Assembly (NCBI GenBank): GCA_003131315.1 | Contig: PKUV01000029.1 | Coordinates: 14,798-75,540, forward strand | Direction of reading: 5' to 3' | Source: Acidobacteriaceae bacterium | GTDB lineage: Bacteria > Acidobacteriota > Terriglobia > Terriglobales > Acidobacteriaceae | Length of the DNA: 60,743 nucleotides | Shown here: positions 4,777-35,243 of the stretch, piece by piece | Position numbering within the stretch: the first letter of the stretch is position 1 | Layout: each line of letters starts with the position of its first letter | Position numbers and translations under genes: made by a program | Notes under the pieces: generated by a model | Databases searched by the model: none | The model's input: the letters and a program-made list of their open reading frames with translations, nothing else | Told to the model about the DNA's origin: nothing

Positions 4777-6114
4777 CTACTGCTGCTTGAAACGGATCTC
4801 CACGTCCACGGTCTTGGCTTTCGCGTCCGGGGTTTCATGAATGCTCACGGCCCACCGCACGCCGCGGGGAACGAGTTGTCCGGTATCGTCCAAAAACTTC
4901 TTGGGATAGTCGGCGTTATAGGGCTGACCTTCGCGCAGGGTCCACGCGGCTCGCATGCGCGCTGTGGCCTGCGTGTCGAGTCCCAGGATCTCCAACTCTC
5001 CCATCCTGTAAAGGTCGCCTTCGACGACGTTCAGGTCGTAGTGCACGGTACTTTTCTCGTCGTCGAACTGGGTGTCGGGCTTGATCTGAACCGTCATGTA
5101 GCCGCGGCTGCGGTAAAGCTTGCTTACGTTTTCGATGTCGCGGAGAAGGCGCACGGCGTCGGCGGGCTGGCCGGGCGGCAAGTGGATGAGGGGCGCGACT
5201 TCGCTGGTGGTGATGGCGGAGGTGCCCTTCCAGTCGACGCTGGAAGTTGAATATATCTTACCCGGCCTTACAGGGACGATCGCATCCACCTTAAGTTCGG
5301 CGGGACCTTGCGCATCAGCCGCAGGAGAAGGTTGGGGCACCACACTCGCGTCTGACGACCCAAACGCGGCCTTCAAATATCCGCGCTGCAGATACACCGG
5401 CAGCAGGTCAAACTTAGCGAGGGCGCCGAGAGAAGAGCGCCCGTATTCTGCTCCCGTGATGCGGCGGGCTGCGGTTGTGAGTAGAGCCGTCTGCTCGGGC
5501 GAAGCTCCCGGGAATTCGAGGTCGCGAATCTGGATACTGACTTCCTCGACCCGATAAACGACTGCGGTCAGGGCGCCGCCCAATTCGTCTTCATTGCGCA
5601 GGAAATCTACCCGCCCTGGAAATTGCTTTTCGGTGAGGATGGCTTGCAGCGCCTCGGAAACCCGGTCTGGAAGATTGCCTGCAAGCGGCAGCAACTGCTT
5701 GAATAGCGGAACGCGGCGTTGCAAGGCGGTGCGGAGTTCGTCGTCGGTGAACCAGACGAAGTTTTCGAAGTGCGCGGGAACCAGCTTGCTCTTGTCGGTA
5801 TCCGCGAGCTGCAGTTCGAGTCTTACGCCCGTATCTGAAGAAGAATACGAATAGACAACGTTGCTGAACAGGCCGGAATCGCCCAGGCGCTGCACCGCCT
5901 CTTCGAAATCTCCGTCGGCGGCGTTCTGGCCGATCTGCAGGCCGCTCGCGGCGAGAATTTCTTTGTCGGTGTAGCGCGCCGTTCCCGTGACTTTCAGCGC
6001 GATGAGCTTGGAGGCGGCGCCGGAGGAAGCTTTGCCGCTGGTGGACTGCCTCTGGGCTGCGGCAGCCGAAAGAAGCAAGAACAAGAAGAGCACGAAACGC
6101 GTAACCCTGTTCAT
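4777..6114 (-). CDS. POTRA-domain outer-membrane assembly-like protein without a barrel
   Basis: A 445-residue protein with a signal peptide (MNRVTRFVLFLFLLLSAAAAQ). Repeated POTRA-like segments follow: LIALKVTGTARYTDKEI (about 37-110), a middle one near 195-290 and VEGDLYRMGELEILG near 360. BamA/TamA proteins carry POTRAs before a C-terminal 16-strand barrel, but this protein stops right after the last POTRA and has no terminal aromatic beta-signal. It probably acts as a periplasmic POTRA scaffold. Its ATG overlaps the LysR stop by 4 bases (6111-6114), so the two genes are translationally coupled. Confidence 0.75.
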   Translation of the reverse strand: MNRVTRFVLFLFLLLSAAAAQRQSTSGKASSGAASKLIALKVTGTARYTDKEILAASGLQIGQNAADGDFEEAVQRLGDSGLFSNVVYSYSSSDTGVRLELQLADTDKSKLVPAHFENFVWFTDDELRTALQRRVPLFKQLLPLAGNLPDRVSEALQAILTEKQFPGRVDFLRNEDELGGALTAVVYRVEEVSIQIRDLEFPGASPEQTALLTTAARRITGAEYGRSSLGALAKFDLLPVYLQRGYLKAAFGSSDASVVPQPSPAADAQGPAELKVDAIVPVRPGKIYSTSSVDWKGTSAITTSEVAPLIHLPPGQPADAVRLLRDIENVSKLYRSRGYMTVQIKPDTQFDDEKSTVHYDLNVVEGDLYRMGELEILGLDTQATARMRAAWTLREGQPYNADYPKKFLDDTGQLVPRGVRWAVSIHETPDAKAKTVDVEIRFKQQ

Positions 6115-7025
6115 TTGAATCGCTTCCCAGCCCCGGCCGTGGAAAAATTCTTTTGCTTTACCGCGATGTCCATAAAAGCCTTGGCGGCGCGGCTGAGCGA
6201 CTTGTCTTTGCGGAACACGATTGCGAGGTCGCGCCGGATTTGCGCGTCGGCGAACGCGATCGCAACCAGGACCTTGGCCCGAATGTCTTCCTCGATATTG
6301 GAGCGCGCGATAAATCCGACGCCAACATCGGCCGCCACAAAACGCTTCAGCAGTTCGCTCGAATCGAGTTCCATGGCGAAGTTCGGCTTCAAGTGGTGGT
6401 CATAGAACAGCGCATCGAGTGCGTCGCGGGTGTGGCCCAGTTTGGGCACGACCAGCGGATAGGTCGAGACTTCGGCCACGGTGACGCTCTTCTTCGCCGC
6501 CAGTGGATGACAGGGGGCTATGATCACGACGAGTTCGTCGCGATGAATCATCTGCGCTTCGAGCCGGTTGTCGGTTACGGGCAGCGAGACCACGCCAAAG
6601 TCCACCACGTTCTCGATGACCGACTCGAGAATCTTGGCGTAGTCGGAGCGCTTGATGCTCACGGCGACGTTCGGATAGTCGCGTTTGAATTGCGCGAACA
6701 CCTCAGGCAGGATGTGCAGGCAGGTGCCTTCATTTGCTCCCACGACAATTTCGCCGCGGGGCACGCGCTCGGTCTCGGCAATTTCGTTGAGGATTATCTT
6801 GCGCCGCTCCAGCGTCTCCTCGGAATACTTGAAAAACAATTTGCCGGACGCGGTGAGCGAAACGCGGCCTCCGGAGCGGTCGAGCAGGCGAGCGCCCACT
6901 TCTTCTTCAAGCGCCCGAATCTGGGAGGAGATGGCGGGCTGGGTGCGAAAACGCTTCTCCGCCGCGCGCGAGAAGCTGGAGAGGCGCGCCACTTCCAGGA
7001 AGATTTCGAGCTGATCGAAGTCCAT
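6111..7025 (-). CDS. LysR-family transcriptional regulator
   Basis: A 304-residue regulator. The winged HTH is at residues 1-60 (MDFDQLEIFLEVARLSSFSRAAEKR.. TQPAISSQIRALEEEVGARLLDR), followed by a periplasmic-binding-like effector domain from about 90. The helper helix and wing are intact. It overlaps the POTRA gene downstream by 4 bases, an unusual coupling for LysR genes, which normally diverge from their target. The 5' end and about 50 bases of upstream DNA are duplicated at 8131-8257 on the far side of a TA module. The effector is not predictable. Confidence 0.92.
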   Translation of the reverse strand: MDFDQLEIFLEVARLSSFSRAAEKRFRTQPAISSQIRALEEEVGARLLDRSGGRVSLTASGKLFFKYSEETLERRKIILNEIAETERVPRGEIVVGANEGTCLHILPEVFAQFKRDYPNVAVSIKRSDYAKILESVIENVVDFGVVSLPVTDNRLEAQMIHRDELVVIIAPCHPLAAKKSVTVAEVSTYPLVVPKLGHTRDALDALFYDHHLKPNFAMELDSSELLKRFVAADVGVGFIARSNIEEDIRAKVLVAIAFADAQIRRDLAIVFRKDKSLSRAAKAFMDIAVKQKNFSTAGAGKRFK

Positions 7026-15478: not shown

Positions 15479-15834
15479 TGCGATGGCATCATTGCGTCAC
15501 TTGAAACAACCCCCGGGGCTGTGGAAAAGTCTCCATTTTCCAAAGAGGTTCTGTGATTGTAAACCACGGATGAACAATTCTGTGAAGCAATCCGGGTAAG
15601 CCCCATTACTTAAGGGAGTTAGGGGTGGTTACCGGATGGTAATCCGCTGATTTCAGGTGCCCGTATTGGGAAAAACACCGTTTGGGGAATGGCAAAGTTG
15701 TGCTCTGACAGATTGCGGAAAAAGTCGGGTTTCGTATCAGGGAGCTTCATATCAGGGCATCGCTTTAGCGATGCCTCAAGTTCTCCGTAATCAGGCCCCT
15801 TTAGGGGCTGGGCACCGGGAGTCGCAAACCGCCG
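15479..15834. other. 356-base intergenic region upstream of the DUF5715 gene
   Basis: No coding content. Positions 15601-15700 look like an upstream promoter region of the DUF5715 gene. From 15706 to about 15830 lies a mosaic hairpin repeat that ends against sdhB. Confidence 0.6.
15706..15830. repeat. mosaic hairpin repeat, CAGATTGCGGAAAAAGTCG type
   Basis: Begins CAGATTGCGGAAAAAGTCGG, then TTTCGTATCAGGG, a hairpin GCATCGCTTTAGCGATGC, then CCCCTTTAGGGG with GGCTGGGC. The same building blocks occur at 22134-22256, 42102-42150 and 48621-48771. It abuts the 3' end of sdhB. Confidence 0.75.
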
Positions 15835-20147: not shown

Positions 20148-20170
20148 CTCGTGTGCTCTCCGATAGCTTT

Positions 20171-20246
20171 TCCCTGTGTTCCCCTGTGTCCTCTGTGGTT
20201 AAGCCAAAAAGCCGATAACCACAGAGGACACAGGGGAACACAGGGA
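20171..20246. repeat. perfect 30-bp-arm inverted repeat
   Basis: Positions 20171-20200 and 20217-20246 are exact reverse complements over 30 bases, with a 16-base loop. The arm starts TCCCTGTGTTCCCC and ends CTCTGTGGTT. It sits between rdgB and the PTPS-related gene and abuts that gene's stop codon (20247). Confidence 0.9.
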
Positions 20247-22109: not shown

Positions 22110-22508
22110 ATGACCTTTAGCTTACCTTGAAGTAGCAGCCTGCGGAAAAAGTCCGATGTCGATGCCCAGCCCCTAAAGGGGCAGCTGATTTCGAAAACCG
22201 GCGGCACCGCTGAAGCGGTGCCCTGATACGAAACCCGAATTTTTCCGCAGCCTGCTGGGGCGCGTCGCGCTGCCTCGATCGGACTGCCACGGCGTCGGCG
22301 GCGCGCAGAGCAATTCTATTGCATCGGAAAATTCTCGGAAAATTAACCGAACCGAAATCATTCAGGAGGGGGTGTCGAGGTAGTCTGCGATCAACGAGGT
22401 GGAACAGACCACCGGGGACTGGGCCGACACCAAAGACGGGGTGTCGATCTGGTTCCCGGTTTTTGCTGGGATCAGGACACTATTGGGCGAACGCCGATTG
22501 GCTGGCTT
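22110..22508. other. 399-base intergenic region
   Basis: Holds the complete mosaic repeat 22134-22256 and then about 250 bases without a credible gene. A weak purine-rich stretch near 22365 (ATTCAGGAGGGGG) has no ORF of note behind it. Confidence 0.55.
22134..22256. repeat. mosaic repeat with inverted AGCAGCCTGCGGAAAAA ends
   Basis: Left end AGCAGCCTGCGGAAAAAGTC and right end TTTTTCCGCAGCCTGCT are inverted copies (17 bases). Between them lie CCAGCCCCTAAAGGGGC and GGCACCGCTGAAGCGGTGCC hairpins with CTGATACGAAAC. The two matching ends make it look like a small non-autonomous mobile or REP-like element. Confidence 0.8.
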
Positions 22509-26538: not shown

Positions 26539-27885
26539 TTACGTGTATGGATAAAAGACGAAAAACAGCAGCGACAAGGCGGTCAACGCCCAGAGCGCTG
26601 GGCGAACTTCCCGCAAGCGCCCCGAAACCAGTTTGCAGAAAGGATACAAGATAAAGCCTGCCGTCATGCCAATTCCCACGTTGTAAGTGAAGGCCATCAG
26701 GACGATGACGCCGAAGGCTGGAACCAGTTCGGTGAGGTCGTCGAAGGGAATACGGGTGATCGGAGTGAGCATCAGCAATCCAACGAAGATGAGCGCCGGT
26801 CCGTATGCCTGTGGCGGGATGGCGGAGATGAATGGCGCGAAGAATAAAGTCCCGACAAAACACAGCGCCGTGATGACCGCGGTCAGACCGGTTCGGCCAC
26901 CGGCTTCTACTCCAGTGGCGGACTCGATATAGGCGCCGGATGTGGTGGTTCCAATCACGGCGGCGAAGGTTGTGGCCAGCGCGTCGGCCATCATCGGGCG
27001 CTCGATCTGCGGCAGGTTGCCGTCTTTGTCGAGGAAACCGGCGCGCGCCGACACACCAATGAGCGTGCCCATGGTGTCCACAAATGCCATGACAAAAATC
27101 GTCAGGACGACAGGAAAAAATCCCCAGGTGAACAGACTGTGCAGATCGAACTGGAAAAAGACGGGCTGCAGGCTTGGCGGACGGCTAATCCAACCTGTCG
27201 GCGCCGGAGCGACCCGGGTCACAAAACTGAGAACAGCGGTGGCGAGAACTCCGCTAAGAATCGCGGCCGGGAAACGGCGAATGGTGAGCACCGTCATCAG
27301 CAGGAAACCGAAGATGGAAAGCAGGACCGAAAGCGAGGTGAGATGGCCCGGCCGAACCGGTGCTCCGGGAAATCCCATGGTAACGATGCCGGTCTGATTC
27401 AGTCCGATGAAGGTGAGGAACAATCCGATGCCGACGGCGTAGCTGTAGCGGAGCGTGGCGGGAATGGCGTCGACCATCCACTGGCGGAGGCGGAAAAGAG
27501 TCATCAGAATAAACAGGATCCCGGCCAGGAACACGGCGCCCAGAGCGCTTTGCCACGAGTAGCCGAGCACGTGAACAACGGTGAAGGCGATGAAAGCGTT
27601 CTCGCCCATGTACGGACCGATGGCGAAAGGGCGGTTGGCATAGAAGCCCATCAGCAGCGTTCCGAAAATGGCGGTGAGAATGGTGGCTGTTAGCGAGGCG
27701 CCAGCCGGCATGCCGGCAGTTTTCAGGATGGCGGGGTTGACGGCCACGATGTAGGCCATCGTAAAGAAGGTGGTGAGTCCGGCGACGATTTCGCGGCGGA
27801 CGGTTGTCTGGTGGTGAGAGAGTCCAAAGAACTGATCTATCCAGCGGTTCAAGTTGCCCTCGGGTGGGAACTCAGGATTGTACAT
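26539..27885 (-). CDS. NCS2-family purine permease
   Basis: A 448-residue transporter with about 12 helices of the AzgA/PbuG type (adenine, guanine, hypoxanthine). AYIVAVNPAIL, GENAFIAFTVVHVLG and the NBD-like segments FVDTMGTLIGVSARAGFLDKDGNLPQ and ATTFAAVIGTTTSGAYIESATGVEAGGRTGLTA are the family motifs. The ATG at 27885 is preferred; further upstream the frame runs towards the IS element. The IS1-family element starts 36 bases upstream of this gene and may have changed its promoter. Confidence 0.9.
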   Translation of the reverse strand: MYNPEFPPEGNLNRWIDQFFGLSHHQTTVRREIVAGLTTFFTMAYIVAVNPAILKTAGMPAGASLTATILTAIFGTLLMGFYANRPFAIGPYMGENAFIAFTVVHVLGYSWQSALGAVFLAGILFILMTLFRLRQWMVDAIPATLRYSYAVGIGLFLTFIGLNQTGIVTMGFPGAPVRPGHLTSLSVLLSIFGFLLMTVLTIRRFPAAILSGVLATAVLSFVTRVAPAPTGWISRPPSLQPVFFQFDLHSLFTWGFFPVVLTIFVMAFVDTMGTLIGVSARAGFLDKDGNLPQIERPMMADALATTFAAVIGTTTSGAYIESATGVEAGGRTGLTAVITALCFVGTLFFAPFISAIPPQAYGPALIFVGLLMLTPITRIPFDDLTELVPAFGVIVLMAFTYNVGIGMTAGFILYPFCKLVSGRLREVRPALWALTALSLLFFVFYPYT

Positions 27886-27913
27886 TCGCCGCGCTCGAAG
27901 GACGAATCGAGCC

Positions 27914-27921
27914 GGAGGCTT
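27914..27921. repeat. target site duplication, left copy
   Basis: GGAGGCTT, identical to 30221-30228 on the other side of the element. An 8-bp duplication is within the range made by IS1-family transposases (8-9 bp). Confidence 0.85.
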
Positions 27922-27940
27922 GGTAGTGGCTGAATTTGAA
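27922..27940. repeat. left terminal inverted repeat of the IS1-family element
   Basis: GGTAGTGGCTGAATTTGAA, the exact reverse complement of 30202-30220. Its GGT..TG beginning is typical of IS1-family ends. Confidence 0.9.
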
Positions 27941-27988
27941 TTTAGAAGTTTTCCACAGACGTAAGCCAACCGAAAAGGAGTTGAAAAC

Positions 27989-28060
27989 ATGAATACTCAA
28001 GCTGTAAGCAGGACGGCTCGTGAAAAGGATGCCGCCGCCACCACTGACAAGCGCAAATGA
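27989..28060 (+). CDS. 23-residue leader ORF of the IS element
   Basis: MNTQAVSRTAREKDAAATTDKRK, a basic peptide with a strong ribosome binding site (AAAAGGAG, 8 bases before the ATG). It precedes a 14-bp stem-loop (28112-28153) and then the transposase. It may be an expressed leader that regulates the transposase, or merely a cryptic ORF; the excellent binding site argues for translation. Confidence 0.45.
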   Translation: MNTQAVSRTAREKDAAATTDKRK

Positions 28061-28111
28061 CAAGAGCCGATAGAGACGCGAATCTCTAACGGCCCTTAAA
28101 ACCAACAATCC

Positions 28112-28153
28112 GGCAAGCCGAAATGCCAGTCCTCAAGTTCATTTTGGCTTGCC
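28112..28153 (+). promoter_or_regulatory. stem-loop ahead of the transposase start
   Basis: GGCAAGCCGAAATG (28112-28125) pairs with CATTTTGGCTTGCC (28140-28153), 13 of 14 positions plus a G-T pair, with a 14-base loop. Followed by TTTACC and the transposase binding site AAGGATAAA. It could attenuate read-through from outside promoters, as known for several IS elements. Confidence 0.55.
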
Positions 28154-28177
28154 TTTACCAGAAAGGTCAAGGATAAA

Positions 28178-28993
28178 ATGAACACTCTCTCTGCTGAAAA
28201 GAAACTCGCCGTTATCTCCGCGCTAGTCGAAGGCAATTCCATCCGATCCATCAGCCGCATGACCAATGTTGACCGGAACACTATCGCATCGCTGCTACTG
28301 CGAACTGGCGACCGCTGCGCCGAGATCATGGACAGTAGTATGCGAAACCTCCGCTGTGGATTCGTACAGGCGGATGAAATCTGGTGCTACGTCGGCAAGA
28401 AAGATAAGCGCATCCGCCAGGGTGATTCGCTCGAACTGGGCAGTCAGTGGGTTTTCGTGGCAATGGATGCGGAAACGAAGCTGGTGCCTGTCTACACGGT
28501 CGGCAAGCGCACAGAAGAAACTACTTGGTATTTCGTCAACGAACTTGCCGAGCGCATCTCGACGCGGATTCAATTGACCACGGATGGTTTTGTGTTCTAT
28601 CAGCGTCACGTCGAGGATGCCTTCGGGTCAGACGTAGACTTCGCGCAACTGATAAAGCTCTACGGCCAATATGGACAGCATGACGCGGATGCGAAATACT
28701 CCCCAAGCCCAATCGTCGAGGTTATCTCCAAGGTACGAAACGGCGATCCCGATCCGGCCCGCATCTGCACTTCGCACATCGAACGGCAGAACTTGACCAT
28801 GCGTATGCAGATGCGGCGATTCACGCGGTTGACGAACGCTTTCTCGAAGAAGTTGCGGCACCTGAAAGCGGCTTGCGCTTTGCACTTCGCGCACTATAAT
28901 TTCTGTCGCGTGCATTCATCGTTGCGCGTGACCCCTGCAATGGCTGCTGGTATTGCTTCGGAAATTTGGCCGCTTCAGATGCTATTAGCTTAA
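28178..28993 (+). CDS. IS1-family transposase
   Basis: A 271-residue single-frame DDE transposase. An HTH segment is at residues 12-45 (ISALVEGNSIRSISRMTN..). Candidate catalytic residues: Asp66 in ADEIW, Asp136 in LTTDGF, Glu202 in HIERQNLTMRM; the IERxNLTxR..FSKK block is the IS1 signature. Unlike IS1 of E. coli no frameshift between InsA and InsB is needed. Good ribosome binding site. Confidence 0.92.
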   Translation: MNTLSAEKKLAVISALVEGNSIRSISRMTNVDRNTIASLLLRTGDRCAEIMDSSMRNLRCGFVQADEIWCYVGKKDKRIRQGDSLELGSQWVFVAMDAETKLVPVYTVGKRTEETTWYFVNELAERISTRIQLTTDGFVFYQRHVEDAFGSDVDFAQLIKLYGQYGQHDADAKYSPSPIVEVISKVRNGDPDPARICTSHIERQNLTMRMQMRRFTRLTNAFSKKLRHLKAACALHFAHYNFCRVHSSLRVTPAMAAGIASEIWPLQMLLA

Positions 28994-29005
28994 GGAGGTC
29001 ATTGG

Positions 29006-29302
29006 ATGCCTGCTTCAAACCCTTCAAACGATCCGGTCGTGCAAATAATGATGGGAATGTTTGACATGATCGAGCGATACCGAAAGGAAAGTGACGCTTT
29101 GCAAGAGATGCTGCTACGCCGGGGTCTAAAGCGGCGACAGCTCCGTAAAGAAATGAACGAGATTCTAGGACATCCAAAGCCTTTATCTCGTGCCCATCAG
29201 CAATTTCGAGAATTGTGCGAAGGAATGAGAGTCTTTTTGGAGCAGAATCAAGCGAACCAAGCACTCCTAGCAGAAATTCCTGTACTTGGAAAACCTCAGT
29301 GA
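29006..29302 (+). CDS. IS passenger gene, hypothetical protein
   Basis: A 98-residue, mostly helical, charged protein (MPASNPSNDPVVQIMMGMFDMIERYRKESDALQEMLLRRGLKRRQ..). Preceded by a perfect TTAAGGAGGT binding site 12 bases past the transposase stop, so translated from the same mRNA. No family recognised. It could be a transposition helper or an unrelated passenger. Confidence 0.75.
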   Translation: MPASNPSNDPVVQIMMGMFDMIERYRKESDALQEMLLRRGLKRRQLRKEMNEILGHPKPLSRAHQQFRELCEGMRVFLEQNQANQALLAEIPVLGKPQ

Positions 29303-29378
29303 CAGATACGTGCGTCTGTGGCATAATCCTCCTCAGACGCGGCTGAGAAGGACGCGACGATAAATTCCAAGTTGTGAG

Positions 29379-29408
29379 AAAAGGCCCGCCTGCCAGCGGG
29401 CTTTTCTA
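29379..29408 (+). terminator. rho-independent terminator within the IS element
   Basis: Stem GCCCGC / GCGGGC in AAAAGGCCCGCCTGCCAGCGGGCTTTTCTA, preceded by A's and followed by TTTTCTATTT. It ends the transposase-98 aa transcript. Confidence 0.8.
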
Positions 29409-29445
29409 TTTCCCGTTGTATCATGCCTGTCAAACGGAGGCATGT

Positions 29446-29553
29446 ATGGAGATCGGTTTTAAAATTATCCTGATACTGTTCCTGTGCGTGATTGGCGTCA
29501 AAGTGCAACGCATTGACAAAAACGTAGAGGCATTACTTCGAGATCGGAAATGA
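29446..29553 (+). CDS. 35-residue single-helix membrane peptide
   Basis: MEIGFKIILILFLCVIGVKV followed by a basic/polar tail (QRIDKNVEALLRDRK). A GGAGG binding site lies 5 bases before the ATG. It sits just after a terminator and is followed 6 bases later by another small membrane gene. Too short for homology detection. Confidence 0.6.
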   Translation: MEIGFKIILILFLCVIGVKVQRIDKNVEALLRDRK

Positions 29554-29559
29554 GGCTCT

Positions 29560-29754
29560 ATGCCGCTCTGGTTTGAAATTGCCGTGCTGATCTTTTTAGG
29601 ATTGATAGCCTTAGCTCTGATTGATCTGTGTTTTGCCATGGAAAACGTGACTCGGAACATGTCGAATTTCGGCATCCGGTTTGAAGAGGAAATCTTGCCG
29701 CGCCTAGAAACGGCTATCCGAGGCAATTCCGATACCACTCTCAGTGACGATTAA
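29560..29754 (+). CDS. 64-residue single-helix membrane protein
   Basis: N-terminal helix (LWFEIAVLIFLGLIALALIDLCFA) followed by a cytoplasmic-like tail of 40 residues (NVTRNMSNFGIRFEEEILPRLETAI..). Paired with the 35-residue peptide just upstream; both resemble small holin-like or accessory proteins but no assignment can be made. Confidence 0.6.
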   Translation: MPLWFEIAVLIFLGLIALALIDLCFAMENVTRNMSNFGIRFEEEILPRLETAIRGNSDTTLSDD

Positions 29755-29762
29755 CGCCAAAG

Positions 29763-30113
29763 TCAAGCGGCTGGATTGGCGATTTTCCAGCCCACGCTCG
29801 TCTGGACTATTTGCTTCTTTTTGGCCAAGCGTTTCAGGCATCCCATCACTCGGCGGGGTTTCATCCCGGTTGCCGAAGAGATAGAAGAAATTGATTGCGG
29901 AACCGCCCGTGGGACCGGGCCAAAATTTCCTCCCTTCTCTACCCGACTCTCCAAGTAGTCTCTCACCTTGTAATCGAAGAACCTGTCCATGTACCAATCC
30001 CACGTTTCCAGCATTTTCCTTGCTCCATAATACGCAGCGAGAAGGAGGGTCACGCCAGCAGCCAACCAACCTTCTACGGTTCGGGCGTAGGGCCACAAGT
30101 CGCGCCATTTCAT
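29763..30113 (-). CDS. IS passenger gene, membrane-anchored winged-helix-like protein
   Basis: A 116-residue protein on the opposite strand to the other genes of the element. One helix near residues 15-30 (GWLAAGVTLLLAAYYGA), then a basic domain with SISSISSATGMKPRRVMGCLKRLAKKKQIVQ, which reads like a winged-helix DNA-binding segment. The ATG at 30113 is preferred to a TTG at 30206. Convergent with the two membrane peptides; it could regulate the element. No family recognised. Confidence 0.6.
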   Translation of the reverse strand: MKWRDLWPYARTVEGWLAAGVTLLLAAYYGARKMLETWDWYMDRFFDYKVRDYLESRVEKGGNFGPVPRAVPQSISSISSATGMKPRRVMGCLKRLAKKKQIVQTSVGWKIANPAA

Positions 30114-30201
30114 AGGGAGCGATTCTACGCCGTAGATTTTAGTTTTGAAGGGTCGAGTGGCAACCAAGGCAATCTGATTGCCACTCAATAGCGGCCTAAG
30201 T

Positions 30202-30220
30202 TTCAAATTCAGCCACTACC
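30202..30220. repeat. right terminal inverted repeat of the IS1-family element
   Basis: Reverse complement of GGTAGTGGCTGAATTTGAA, exact over 19 bases. Confidence 0.9.
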
Positions 30221-30228
30221 GGAGGCTT
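30221..30228. repeat. target site duplication, right copy
   Basis: GGAGGCTT, identical to 27914-27921. Confidence 0.85.
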
Positions 30229-30312
30229 TCCTCCGTGTTCCTCTGTGTCCCCTGTGGTTCCCGCTGTTCGCAGCGTCAAAAGCGAAACCACAGAGGACAC
30301 AGAGGAAAGCCT
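30224..30312. repeat. long hairpin repeat at the IS insertion site
   Basis: GGCTTTCCTC..TGTGTCC..GTGGTT pairs with AACCACAGAGGACACAGAGGAAAGCC. It belongs to the AACCACAGAGG hairpin family; the IS inserted at its left edge, so part of the target duplication comes from this repeat. Confidence 0.7.
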
Positions 30313-30337
30313 GGACTTCGGGTGCGTTCCTGAGCGA

Positions 30338-31312
30338 TCAGCGATTGCGCAACTCGGCGAGCAACTTGGGGTCGATGTTGCCGCCGCTGATCACGGCTAC
30401 GTTGATCTTTGTGTTGGGCAACTCGTCGGCGTGGAAAAGAAATGCGGCAGGGGCTACGGCGCCACTCGGTTCGGCCAGTGTTTTCACGTTCGCGCTTAGA
30501 GCGCGCATGGCCTCGCGAATCTCGTCTTCGGTCACGCTGACGATGTCGTCGACATAGGCGCGGATGTGTTCGAAATTGATCGCGCCGATGCTCTGCGTGC
30601 GAAGACCGTCGGCCAGCGTCTGCGAGACTTGCTCAGCCGGGAAGGAAACGATGCGGCCGGCGCGCAGGCTGGCTTGCGCGTCGGCAGCAAGTTCGGGCTC
30701 GACGCCGATCACCTTCACCCTGGGTTGGCCAAGCTTGGGATTGCTGAGCTTGATCGCGGCCGAGATGCCGCTGATCAATCCACCTCCGCCGACGGGGACC
30801 AGCACGGTTTCAACGTTGGGGAGGTCTTCGAGGATTTCGAGCCCGACGGTTCCCTGGCCGGCGATGATCTTTTCGTCATTGTAGGGTGGCACGATCGCGT
30901 AGCCGTGCTCGGCGGCCAGTTGCTCGGCGCGCAGGCGGCGCTCCTCGCTACTGGGTCCGACGGCGACGATCTCCGCTCCGAGGGCGGCGGTGGCTTCGAG
31001 CTTGTTCTTCGGAGCATTGCTGGGCATGACGATGATGGCCTTCACGCCCAAGGCCCGCGCTGCATAGGCCACGCCCTGCGCGTGATTGCCGCTGGAATAG
31101 GAGATGACTCCGCGGCGGCGTTCGTCGTCGCTAAGAGATGCGACCTTGTTGTAAGCGCCACGCAGTTTGAAGGCGCCAATGGGCTGCAGGTTTTCGAGCT
31201 TGAGGAAGAGCTTGCGTTGATCCGCTGCGTCCGTCCATTCGAACAGGGGGGTGCGGACGGCGATGCCGTCGAGCAGCGCGCGGGCTTGCTGAATGTCGTG
31301 GAGAGAAACCAT
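30338..31312 (-). CDS. threonine/serine dehydratase
   Basis: A 324-residue PLP enzyme of the threonine dehydratase family, without a C-terminal ACT domain (catabolic/TdcB-like or serine racemase-like). The PLP-binding Lys is in IGAFKLRGAYNK near residue 52, the SSGNHAQG substrate loop and PVGGGGLISG phosphate-binding loop are present. It deaminates threonine to 2-oxobutanoate or serine to pyruvate. The ATG at 31312 is chosen; a GTG at 31327 is also possible. Its first 10 codons are mirrored by a diverged copy at 32129-32159 beyond VapBC. Confidence 0.9.
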   Translation of the reverse strand: MVSLHDIQQARALLDGIAVRTPLFEWTDAADQRKLFLKLENLQPIGAFKLRGAYNKVASLSDDERRRGVISYSSGNHAQGVAYAARALGVKAIIVMPSNAPKNKLEATAALGAEIVAVGPSSEERRLRAEQLAAEHGYAIVPPYNDEKIIAGQGTVGLEILEDLPNVETVLVPVGGGGLISGISAAIKLSNPKLGQPRVKVIGVEPELAADAQASLRAGRIVSFPAEQVSQTLADGLRTQSIGAINFEHIRAYVDDIVSVTEDEIREAMRALSANVKTLAEPSGAVAPAAFLFHADELPNTKINVAVISGGNIDPKLLAELRNR

Positions 31313-31377
31313 ATTGGTTAATAGCACACTACTTGAGGGTGCCCGGTTCCTGCGTTATTTGCAAGAGACTGCCGCCG

Positions 31378-35095: not shown

Positions 35096-35175
35096 TAGAC
35101 GAATTGATGCTAGCACAGGGAGGGCCGGCGATGGAGTGACGCGCAACCATGGCTAGCAGTCTTGGGTGCAATTAC

Positions 35176-35243
35176 GGTTCGTATCAGGGCATGCCTTCAG
35201 GCATGCCGTCAGTGCCGCGTTATGAGAGCGCCTTCAGGCGCGG
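35176..35243. repeat. double-hairpin repeat, inverted relative to 2508-2576
   Basis: GGTTCGTATCAGGGCATGCC..GGCATGCC and GTTATGAGAGCGCCTTCAGGCGC. Lies in the promoter region of the EcsC-family gene, so it may affect its expression. Confidence 0.7.

Follow-up and report, generated by a model that had tools for sequence, protein, structure and literature searches.

A complete cargo-carrying IS1-like transposon of an Acidobacteriaceae bacterium, with a structured leader RNA that may set transposase synthesis

Insertion sequences (ISs) of the IS1 family are defined by ends of the type GG-NNN-TG and a target duplication of 8-9 bp. Classical members encode InsA and InsB, joined by a programmed frameshift, and single-frame members exist too. 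Long members with a single open reading frame (ORF), the ISMhu11 group, are listed in ISfinder, and the cargo part of the present finding may be better known than the searched literature shows. The machinery of Tn7 differs from that of single-transposase IS1-type elements. Here, we describe an IS1-like element of 2299 bp in a stretch of 60,743 nucleotides from an Acidobacteriaceae bacterium (assembly GCA_003131315.1, contig PKUV01000029.1). This whole stretch is called the window, and all coordinates are counted from its first letter. The element is probably a complete, once-inserted member of a widespread IS1-like clade that moves cargo genes, with a leader RNA that sets the synthesis of the transposase.

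Several described systems resemble parts of this element. ISs with passenger genes are called transporter ISs (tISs) (PMC7986276, PMC3129680). As far as the available text of these two papers goes, tISs combine IS ends, a transposase and genes unrelated to transposition, as does the window element, and a leader switch is not mentioned. In ISPpu9 of Pseudomonas putida, a fold of the 5' untranslated region hides the start region of the transposase gene, and two small RNAs act on it (PMC8450116). The available text of that paper names no leader peptide and does not describe passenger genes, unlike what is seen in the window. The mgtL/mgtP leaders of Salmonella consist of a short proline-rich leader ORF with an attenuator stem-loop and are sensitive to EF-P (PMC6460261). 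The window leader resembles them in combining a short proline-rich ORF with a stem-loop in one leader RNA. In the part of the paper available, however, these leaders act by transcription attenuation on Mg transport genes, whereas the window leader precedes a transposase gene and would probably act on translation. Tn7-like transposons carry cargo that includes defence genes (PMC8649781, available text). Defence-like cargo is also found in the window's clade, which in contrast has IS1-type ends and a single transposase gene. Among the papers listed in literature searches, which mostly leave subscription journals outside, none has a title that points to a leader peptide or an attenuator before an IS1-type transposase.

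The boundaries of the window element are exact. The 19-bp sequence GGTAGTGGCTGAATTTGAA stands at one end and its exact reverse complement at the other, and the ends diverge past base 19. Both are flanked by a perfect 8-bp duplication. An original prediction, made from the sequence alone, had proposed these ends, this duplication and the length of 2299 bp (27922-30220), and all of them hold to the base.
27914-27921, no strand: left copy of the target-site duplication, GGAGGCTT (direct comparison; empty site in relatives)
27922-27940, plus strand: left terminal inverted repeat, 19 bp (exact match)
28178-28993, plus strand: IS1-like transposase, 271 amino acids in a single frame, with D66, D136 and E202 (Pfam; comparison with InsB)
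30202-30220, minus strand: right terminal inverted repeat, 19 bp (exact match)
30221-30228, no strand: right copy of the target-site duplication (direct comparison)
Ends nearer the transposase would have assigned the remaining DNA to the host. No rival pair around the transposase is present in 27000-31200 (GG start, at least 13 of 20 matching bases, a duplication with at most one mismatch). In a chance control that combined halves from different loci, ends of 13/20 with an exact 8-9-bp duplication occurred in 0 of 338 cases.

The empty site is preserved in relatives. Among 24 genomes of the same genus, 18 matched, the window's own included (17 of the 23 others), and 13 loci besides the own one were returned from these 17 for comparison. 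In all 13, both flanks lie close together without the element. A single alignment crosses the join in eight (L143, L144, L145, L148, L150, L151, L153 and L154), and in the other five it is broken in a variable stretch adjoining the site. The duplication and the empty site imply one past transposition event, and most simply the element inserted in the window's lineage. The proposal of a complete IS1-like element enclosing passenger genes is thus borne out by ends that enclose the genes and by the empty sites. The transposase would bind the 19-bp ends and move everything between them, as is known for IS1, and we infer that the cargo moves as a unit.

The transposase is IS1-like. It matches PF03400 (DDE_Tnp_IS1) with 40.2 bits, above the cut-off of 24.1, and is 24.5% identical to InsB of Escherichia coli IS1A (NC_000913) over 163 amino acids (E 3e-7), with the TDG and IERxN motifs in common. 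The GGTAGTG ends and the 8-bp duplication agree with the end rule and the 8-9-bp duplications of the family, and IS1A has ends of the same GGT...TG type. In contrast to the 768-bp IS1A with its InsA/InsB frameshift layout, the 2299-bp window element has a single 271-codon frame, cargo and a leader RNA. Its score against the NCBIfam IS1 equivalog NF033558 is 65.4 bits, below the cut-off of 100, and the spacing between the second D and the E is 65 residues, compared with 24 in InsB. The earlier claim that all IS1 signatures stand in one frame is therefore right about the single frame and too strong about the full set of signatures. Among 75 clade transposases, the window's included, the spacing could be measured in 49 and is 61-68 residues. 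D66 is kept in 74 of the 75, D136 in 74 and E202 in all. An InsA-like N-terminal zinc-finger-like motif occurs in six and is missing from that of the window. No relative in the PDB was found by sequence up to E 0.1. Since the spacing differs so clearly, the transposase, judged by sequence, is best labelled IS1-like in a separate subgroup. It is very improbable that the element belongs to the IS1595 family instead: PF03400 is above its cut-off, several plasmid relatives are annotated as IS1 family transposase, and no model named IS1595 matches up to E 1 in Pfam or NCBIfam.

Relatives of this transposase are common and carry cargo. A search at the level of the order covered 397 genomes, and 189 of them, the own included, encode a relative. 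The scan of genome contigs confirmed 137 relatives, the best 80 of which were taken. The locus set comprises 113 loci (designated L with a number) at 103 distinct places. An exact duplication of 8-9 bp around inverted ends with at least 13 of 20 matching bases delimits the element at 77 of the 113 loci, or 73 of the 103 places, and the ends are of the GGTAGTG type or GGTA. The 73 delimited elements measure 1655-5150 bp (median 3059), and none is shorter than 1200 bp. The transposase has at least 300 bp of DNA on either side in 47 of them; 23 have this much only to its left and three, including the window element, only to its right. Ends were not detected at the remaining 30 places, several of which reach contig edges. 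Record titles of the relatives name Acidobacteria, Ignavibacteria/Chlorobiota, Bacteroidetes, Myxococcota, Alphaproteobacteria, Verrucomicrobiota, Nitrospirae, Chloroflexi and others. Of 24 matching plasmid records, two were opened, and each has such an element flanked by exact duplications, 4224 bp long in Hoeflea and 2634 bp long in Acidiphilium. A further 17 loci on viral contigs lie outside the analysed set. These elements form a multi-phylum clade of cargo-carrying IS1-like transposons, in which passengers are the rule rather than the exception. The suggestion that passengers are unusual for IS1 thus stands in comparison with IS1A but fails within the window's subgroup, where all 73 delimited elements have at least 1655 bp. 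This rule, together with the cargo on both sides of the transposase, also sets the clade apart from tISs in general.

Some of this cargo resembles defence genes. Of the 168 ORFs that encode at least 100 amino acids, 142 were scanned, and the set may include spurious frames; the proteins of the window were scanned apart. Among the matches listed (the first 25 of 53 families in Pfam, of 160 in PADLOC and of 79 in PHROGs), PF06114 of the ImmA/IrrE type is found in eight ORFs, P63C in five, and NYN and proteasome-like families in three each. Two ORFs each match DNA methylase, SocA/Panacea, dCTP deaminase-like, ClpP-like SDH protease and Abi_2 families. Endonucleases of the BglII, MvaI/BcnI and Mrr types, a kinase and a Schlafen-like protein occur singly, and the listed PADLOC matches include RmrA, capP, MTase and HEC-09 models, several PADLOC matches being generic domains. 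The classes thus include restriction, Abi-like, antitoxin-like and ImmA/IrrE proteins. Of the 53 Pfam families, 14 recur in two or more ORFs, which makes the defence flavour a tendency and not a rule. The cargo may serve the fitness of the host or of the element, for example by defence-like functions.

Other features recur in the cargo of the clade. Proteasome-subunit-like cargo is found repeatedly in IS1-like elements of Acidobacteria (L020, L079 and L098, and by eye L076 at 5731-6516). A small basic protein with the motif GGxxxARAxxLTxEQRxEIAxKAAxxRW is encoded on the left side of many elements, such as L090 (element 61-312) and L109 (element 316-555). It falls into a single BLAST cluster, made up of 32 ORFs. 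Five of these are of the P63C type by eye, and in three of the five the GGxxxARA motif is fused at the N-terminus. This protein is a candidate regulator of the operator-like transposase promoters described below. Genes for tRNAs or tRNA-like RNAs lie inside elements L038 (4628-4717, equal to L012 1155-1244), L057 (3309-3397), L075 (4116-4206) and L112 (4755-4830), and 5' of the transposase in L045, L048, L051 and L060. ARAGORN assigns the anticodon CTA in L038/L012 and in L103, where element ends were not detected, and Ser-GCT in L112. By eye only, the others have CTA or TTA at the anticodon place, which is of the stop type. The tRNA-Sec model gives 39 bits for L057 and 37 bits for L075, both below the cut-off of 47, and L078 4730-4801 matches the tmRNA family with 30 bits, also below its cut-off of 47.

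The unit that relatives share with the window is the block of leader and transposase. In the closest relative found, L034 (81% transposase identity), the homologous block runs from element base 108, which is the ATG of a leader peptide, to base 1032 near the end of the transposase gene and is 78% alike. Outside it, BLAST finds only 31 identical bases (29311-29341), and L034 lacks the passenger genes of the window. Blocks shared with L007, L037, L014, L134, L135 and L138 start at element base 101-111, and that of L011 at base 131; apart from the ends of L011, DNA likeness to the window starts only at the leader. The structured leader occupies 28029-28183 and had not been part of the original prediction, nor had the promoter- and terminator-like stretch at 29299-29405 and the inverted repeat of 9 bp at 30155-30186.
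27989-28060, plus strand: ORF of 23 codons with a good ribosome-binding site, a possible remnant of left cargo
28029-28073, plus strand: leader-peptide ORF, MPPPPLTSANDKSR and stop; alternative start GTG at 28020 (VKRMPPPP...)
28063-28096, plus strand: leader hairpin H1 (covariation), which holds the stop of the leader peptide in its 5' arm
28112-28153, plus strand: leader hairpin H2, GGCAAGCCGAAATG with CATTTTGGCTTGCC (covariation)
28137-28183, plus strand: alternative hairpin H3, GTTCATTTT (28137-28145) with AAAATGAAC (28175-28183) (shuffle-tested fold)

Hairpins H1 and H2 are supported by covariation. Six leaders, that of the window included, have about 160 nucleotides in common before the transposase, with a mean column identity of 76%. 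In their MAFFT alignment, 92.0% of cells are paired and 7 of 27 pairs show double changes (at most 3 in the slid control), and 2 of 500 shuffles score as high. An alignment of 13 rows, fitted to a model, gives 92.9% paired cells and 17 of 27 double-change pairs (at most 5 in the slid control); shuffles reach this in 0 of 500 cases for four of five measures and in 4 of 500 for the fifth. Nine rows of distant leaders from Ignavibacteria, Chlorobiota, Kryptoniota and Bacteroidetes (nine of ten considered, L044 being left out) also show covariation for H1, a helix H2a and a start-burying H3, with 13 of 27 double-change pairs (at most 6 in the slid control; 0 of 500 shuffles), the structure being drawn from one of the alignment's own rows. 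An anti-sequestor helix was considered for these distant leaders and is not supported as drawn. Rfam assigns no family to the window element at gathering score, and its seven matches up to E 5 are all below the cut-offs, as are those at the L055 leader. In 17 loci, the four matches at gathering score are all outside the elements (6S in L010, cobalamin in L044, tRNAs in L056 and L063).

H3 would bury the start codon of the transposase gene, and it overlaps H2 in such a way that both cannot fully form. This alternative was tested in 12 of the 13 alignment rows, with L046 in and L123, where the transposase is missing, out. When the 5' arm of H2 is removed in silico, 10 of the 12 leaders close positions -10 to +3 to a degree that no more than 2 of 200 shuffles match (15 and 16 of 200 for L117 and L119), and nine leaders have a fully paired AUG. 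An intact H2 leaves the AUG open (at least 0.74 unpaired) in 7 of 12 leaders, with 0.82 in the window. The region and the shuffle of this wider test were set up after the result of a narrower one, which is given below.

The leader also encodes a conserved peptide. In 10 of 12 leaders, a short ORF at the same place begins with M, MK, MR or MARR, followed by three or four prolines (three in L115). Across the eight leaders in which proline codons were counted, one codon uses all four third bases while staying proline. The window has the stop in the 5' arm of H1; wherever else it was located, it falls within H1 or directly ahead of it. In L115 (the same place as L007), L117 (the same place as L014), L122, L124 and L125, the tail of a left cargo gene overlaps the peptide in another frame. 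The 23-codon ORF of the window is possibly what remains of such a gene after deletion, because its final codons match the C-terminal tail of the left cargo gene of L115 and L117 in both frame and composition. The host genome has three loci of PF01132, the EF-P family, above the cut-off.

These features suggest the following scheme. A single-frame DDE transposase would move itself and its cargo between GGTAGTG-type ends, with 8-bp duplications made in the process. Its message would carry the leader, and ribosomes would reach H1 while translating the proline-run peptide or the end of the left cargo gene. There they would open H1 or stall on the prolines, and the RNA would settle as H2, with the start codon open in the leader of the window, or as H3, with the start codon buried. 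Since the left gene may be deleted to the 23-codon remnant, the window leader may be read from this remnant or from the GTG at 28020. Covariation establishes H1 and H2 as structures; we infer the switching between folds, its control by leader translation and the direction of this control.

A simpler account, which we regard as unlikely though deserving of weight, keeps the same cargo transposon and takes the leader as a plain roadblock of RNA structure. The start would be sequestered, perhaps to be relieved by antisense RNA or a passing polymerase, and the proline peptide would be incidental or act by way of its sequence alone. ISPpu9 offers a precedent in its start-hiding fold and two small RNAs (PMC8450116, available text). 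In the window, the ribosome-binding site of the peptide is poorly spaced, as AAAAGG touches the ATG. Distant relatives L052, L056, L087 and L044 have a different short ORF, MS(N/K)(V/I)LK.. (MSNVLKII-type), and in some others the scan for leader ORFs found none. In the eight leaders counted, two of the four proline codons are invariably CCA and hence do not vary at the DNA level, and the first is Arg in one leader; coding constraint thus rests mainly on one codon. That codon, which stays proline through all four third bases in the eight leaders counted, and the proline run at the same place in 10 of 12 leaders argue against a peptide without a role.

The poor spacing, the invariant codons and the failed anti-sequestor helix also weigh against the scheme as a whole, leader control included, together with the following points. 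The proline run is absent from two of the 12 leaders, L118 and L121, the latter with only a trace of the transposase. Without the 5' arm of H2, the AUG is not fully paired in L117, L119 and L120. An intact H2 does not open it everywhere: L118, L121 and L046 keep it mostly closed, and L124 and L125 hold it in an intermediate state. The narrower test, which used the short 3' arm of H2 only, dinucleotide-preserving shuffles and the CAAG-type site only, sets L119 and L120 apart from shuffles (1 and 0 of 100), while the remaining 10 of the 12 leaders do not stand out. Four of the first six leaders (L034, L036 = L007, L011 and L039 = L014) have related left genes, which makes leader conservation not wholly independent of the left cargo. 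The leader model R1 matches only 12 of the 397 genomes of the order, compared with 189 that have a transposase relative, and many other relatives have, instead of the leader, a promoter-like stretch overlapping a palindrome, which resembles an operator. Finally, the window element is single-copy at the DNA level in its own genome, no second copy with its gene set was found in the genomes searched, and L076, which shares some of its small genes, has no ends that could be found. The proposed search for other copies thus returned the 8-9-bp duplications at 73 of 103 places but nowhere the same gene set. That the element may be active, as its unbroken ends had suggested, is a conjecture, given the single copy and a closest relative found (L034) without its passengers.

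Other copies illustrate the distribution of the leader. Nine of the 12 model-matched leaders precede a full-length transposase. The one in L120 is followed by the first 74 codons, that in L121 by no more than a trace, and that in L123 by no transposase. Decayed copies have kept the leader RNA without a detectable transposase (L123/L135) or with a trace of its start only (L121/L138). The own genome encodes a second transposase, 43% identical, whose element has 20/20 ends and lies at a contig edge, as well as a third, partial match.

Four passenger frames lie between the ends of the window element, which thus has the composition of a tIS.
29006-29302, plus strand: 98-amino-acid helical protein without a family, starting 12 bp past the transposase stop behind the ribosome-binding site AAGGAGGT
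29299-29327, plus strand: promoter-like GTGACA-17-CATAAT, with a 7-bp inverted repeat at 29312-29318/29334-29340 (sequence scan)
29383-29405, plus strand: terminator-like hairpin GCCCGC..GCGGGC TTTT, 5' of the small membrane genes
29446-29553, plus strand: 35-amino-acid protein with one hydrophobic, membrane-type stretch (69% identical relative in L076)
29560-29754, plus strand: 64-amino-acid protein with one hydrophobic, membrane-type stretch (45% identical over 42 amino acids in L076)
29763-30113, minus strand: 116-amino-acid protein, a long N-terminal helix with a hydrophobic stretch and a C-terminal winged-helix-like domain (fold models)
30136-30186, minus strand: promoter-like TTGCCA-16-TAAAAT, overlapping a 9-bp inverted repeat at 30155-30163/30178-30186, 5' of the 116-amino-acid gene
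The predicted 98-residue protein with its ribosome-binding site and the two tiny single-helix membrane proteins are present as described. The minus-strand protein is present too, with a different start: a homologue from another genome starts near the ATG at 30113, which makes this the most likely start codon, ahead of the TTG at 30206 in the element's tip. As stop and start are 12 bp apart, the 98-residue protein is likely translated together with the transposase. The terminator-like hairpin lies 56-78 nucleotides past the promoter-like site, and the pair precedes the two membrane peptides. The element has six promoter-like sites, compared with 2.2 in shuffles, and four terminator-like ones, compared with 2.8; as a class, they are weak evidence.

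The single-sequence folds of the passengers are modest models. For the 116-residue protein, an H-H-E-E winged-helix pattern follows the long helix; the best model has a predicted local distance difference test (pLDDT) score of 74.7 and the other four 47-53. Comparison with the PDB gives no match at E 0.001 (best E 0.03), with many winged-helix regulators among the top matches. Since its promoter-like site is overlapped by the inverted repeat, the protein, as modelled, may regulate itself from the membrane.

It is improbable that the passengers are accidental host DNA without a role, although part of the evidence would fit this. No convincing family was found for any passenger in Pfam, NCBIfam and further family searches, and the left gene is possibly deleted to a remnant. 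The 98- and 64-residue proteins have only weak matches among 280 genomes each: two for the former besides its own (E 3e-5 and 9e-4), and one for the latter (E 5e-4), which is probably spurious because it lies inside a frame of 1060 codons. A 46% identical homologue of the 116-residue protein is present in one other of 280 genomes of the family with no element ends around it; it hints at the source of the cargo and, the genes of the window being inside the element, does not contradict their passenger status. On the other side, the open frames with their ribosome-binding sites persist, and clade cargo elsewhere matches families of the defence or phage type. Moreover, 29391-29589 (the end of the terminator-like hairpin, the 35-residue gene and the start of the 64-residue gene) is 76% alike in L076, where it lies on the other side of a 48.5% identical IS1-like transposase and on the opposite strand. 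The cargo is thus partly modular.

The element lies between two minus-strand genes named by eye, one permease-like with a likely start at 27885 and one threonine dehydratase-like at 30338-31327. Palindromic repeats of the CACAGAGGACACAGAGGAA type are found at 30229-30310, directly beside the insertion, and at about 20168-20240. In a 16-mer scan, further exact inverted repeats pair about 2510-2578 with 35173-35241 and about 15725-15814 with 22163-22238.

More broadly, and tentatively, IS1-like cargo transposons across phyla could gate their transposase by a leader peptide and a two-state RNA, with stalling on a proline run in the window's subgroup. This would tie transposition to the state of translation in the cell (EF-P, prolyl-tRNA, stress or infection) while small defence-type modules are ferried. 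IS1 is the textbook minimal transposon, and yet the related multi-phylum group has extra DNA in every delimited element. IS1-like cargo elements are likely under-annotated gene carriers, some with defence-like cargo. If the leader works as read here, transposase synthesis would be a readout of ribosome behaviour.

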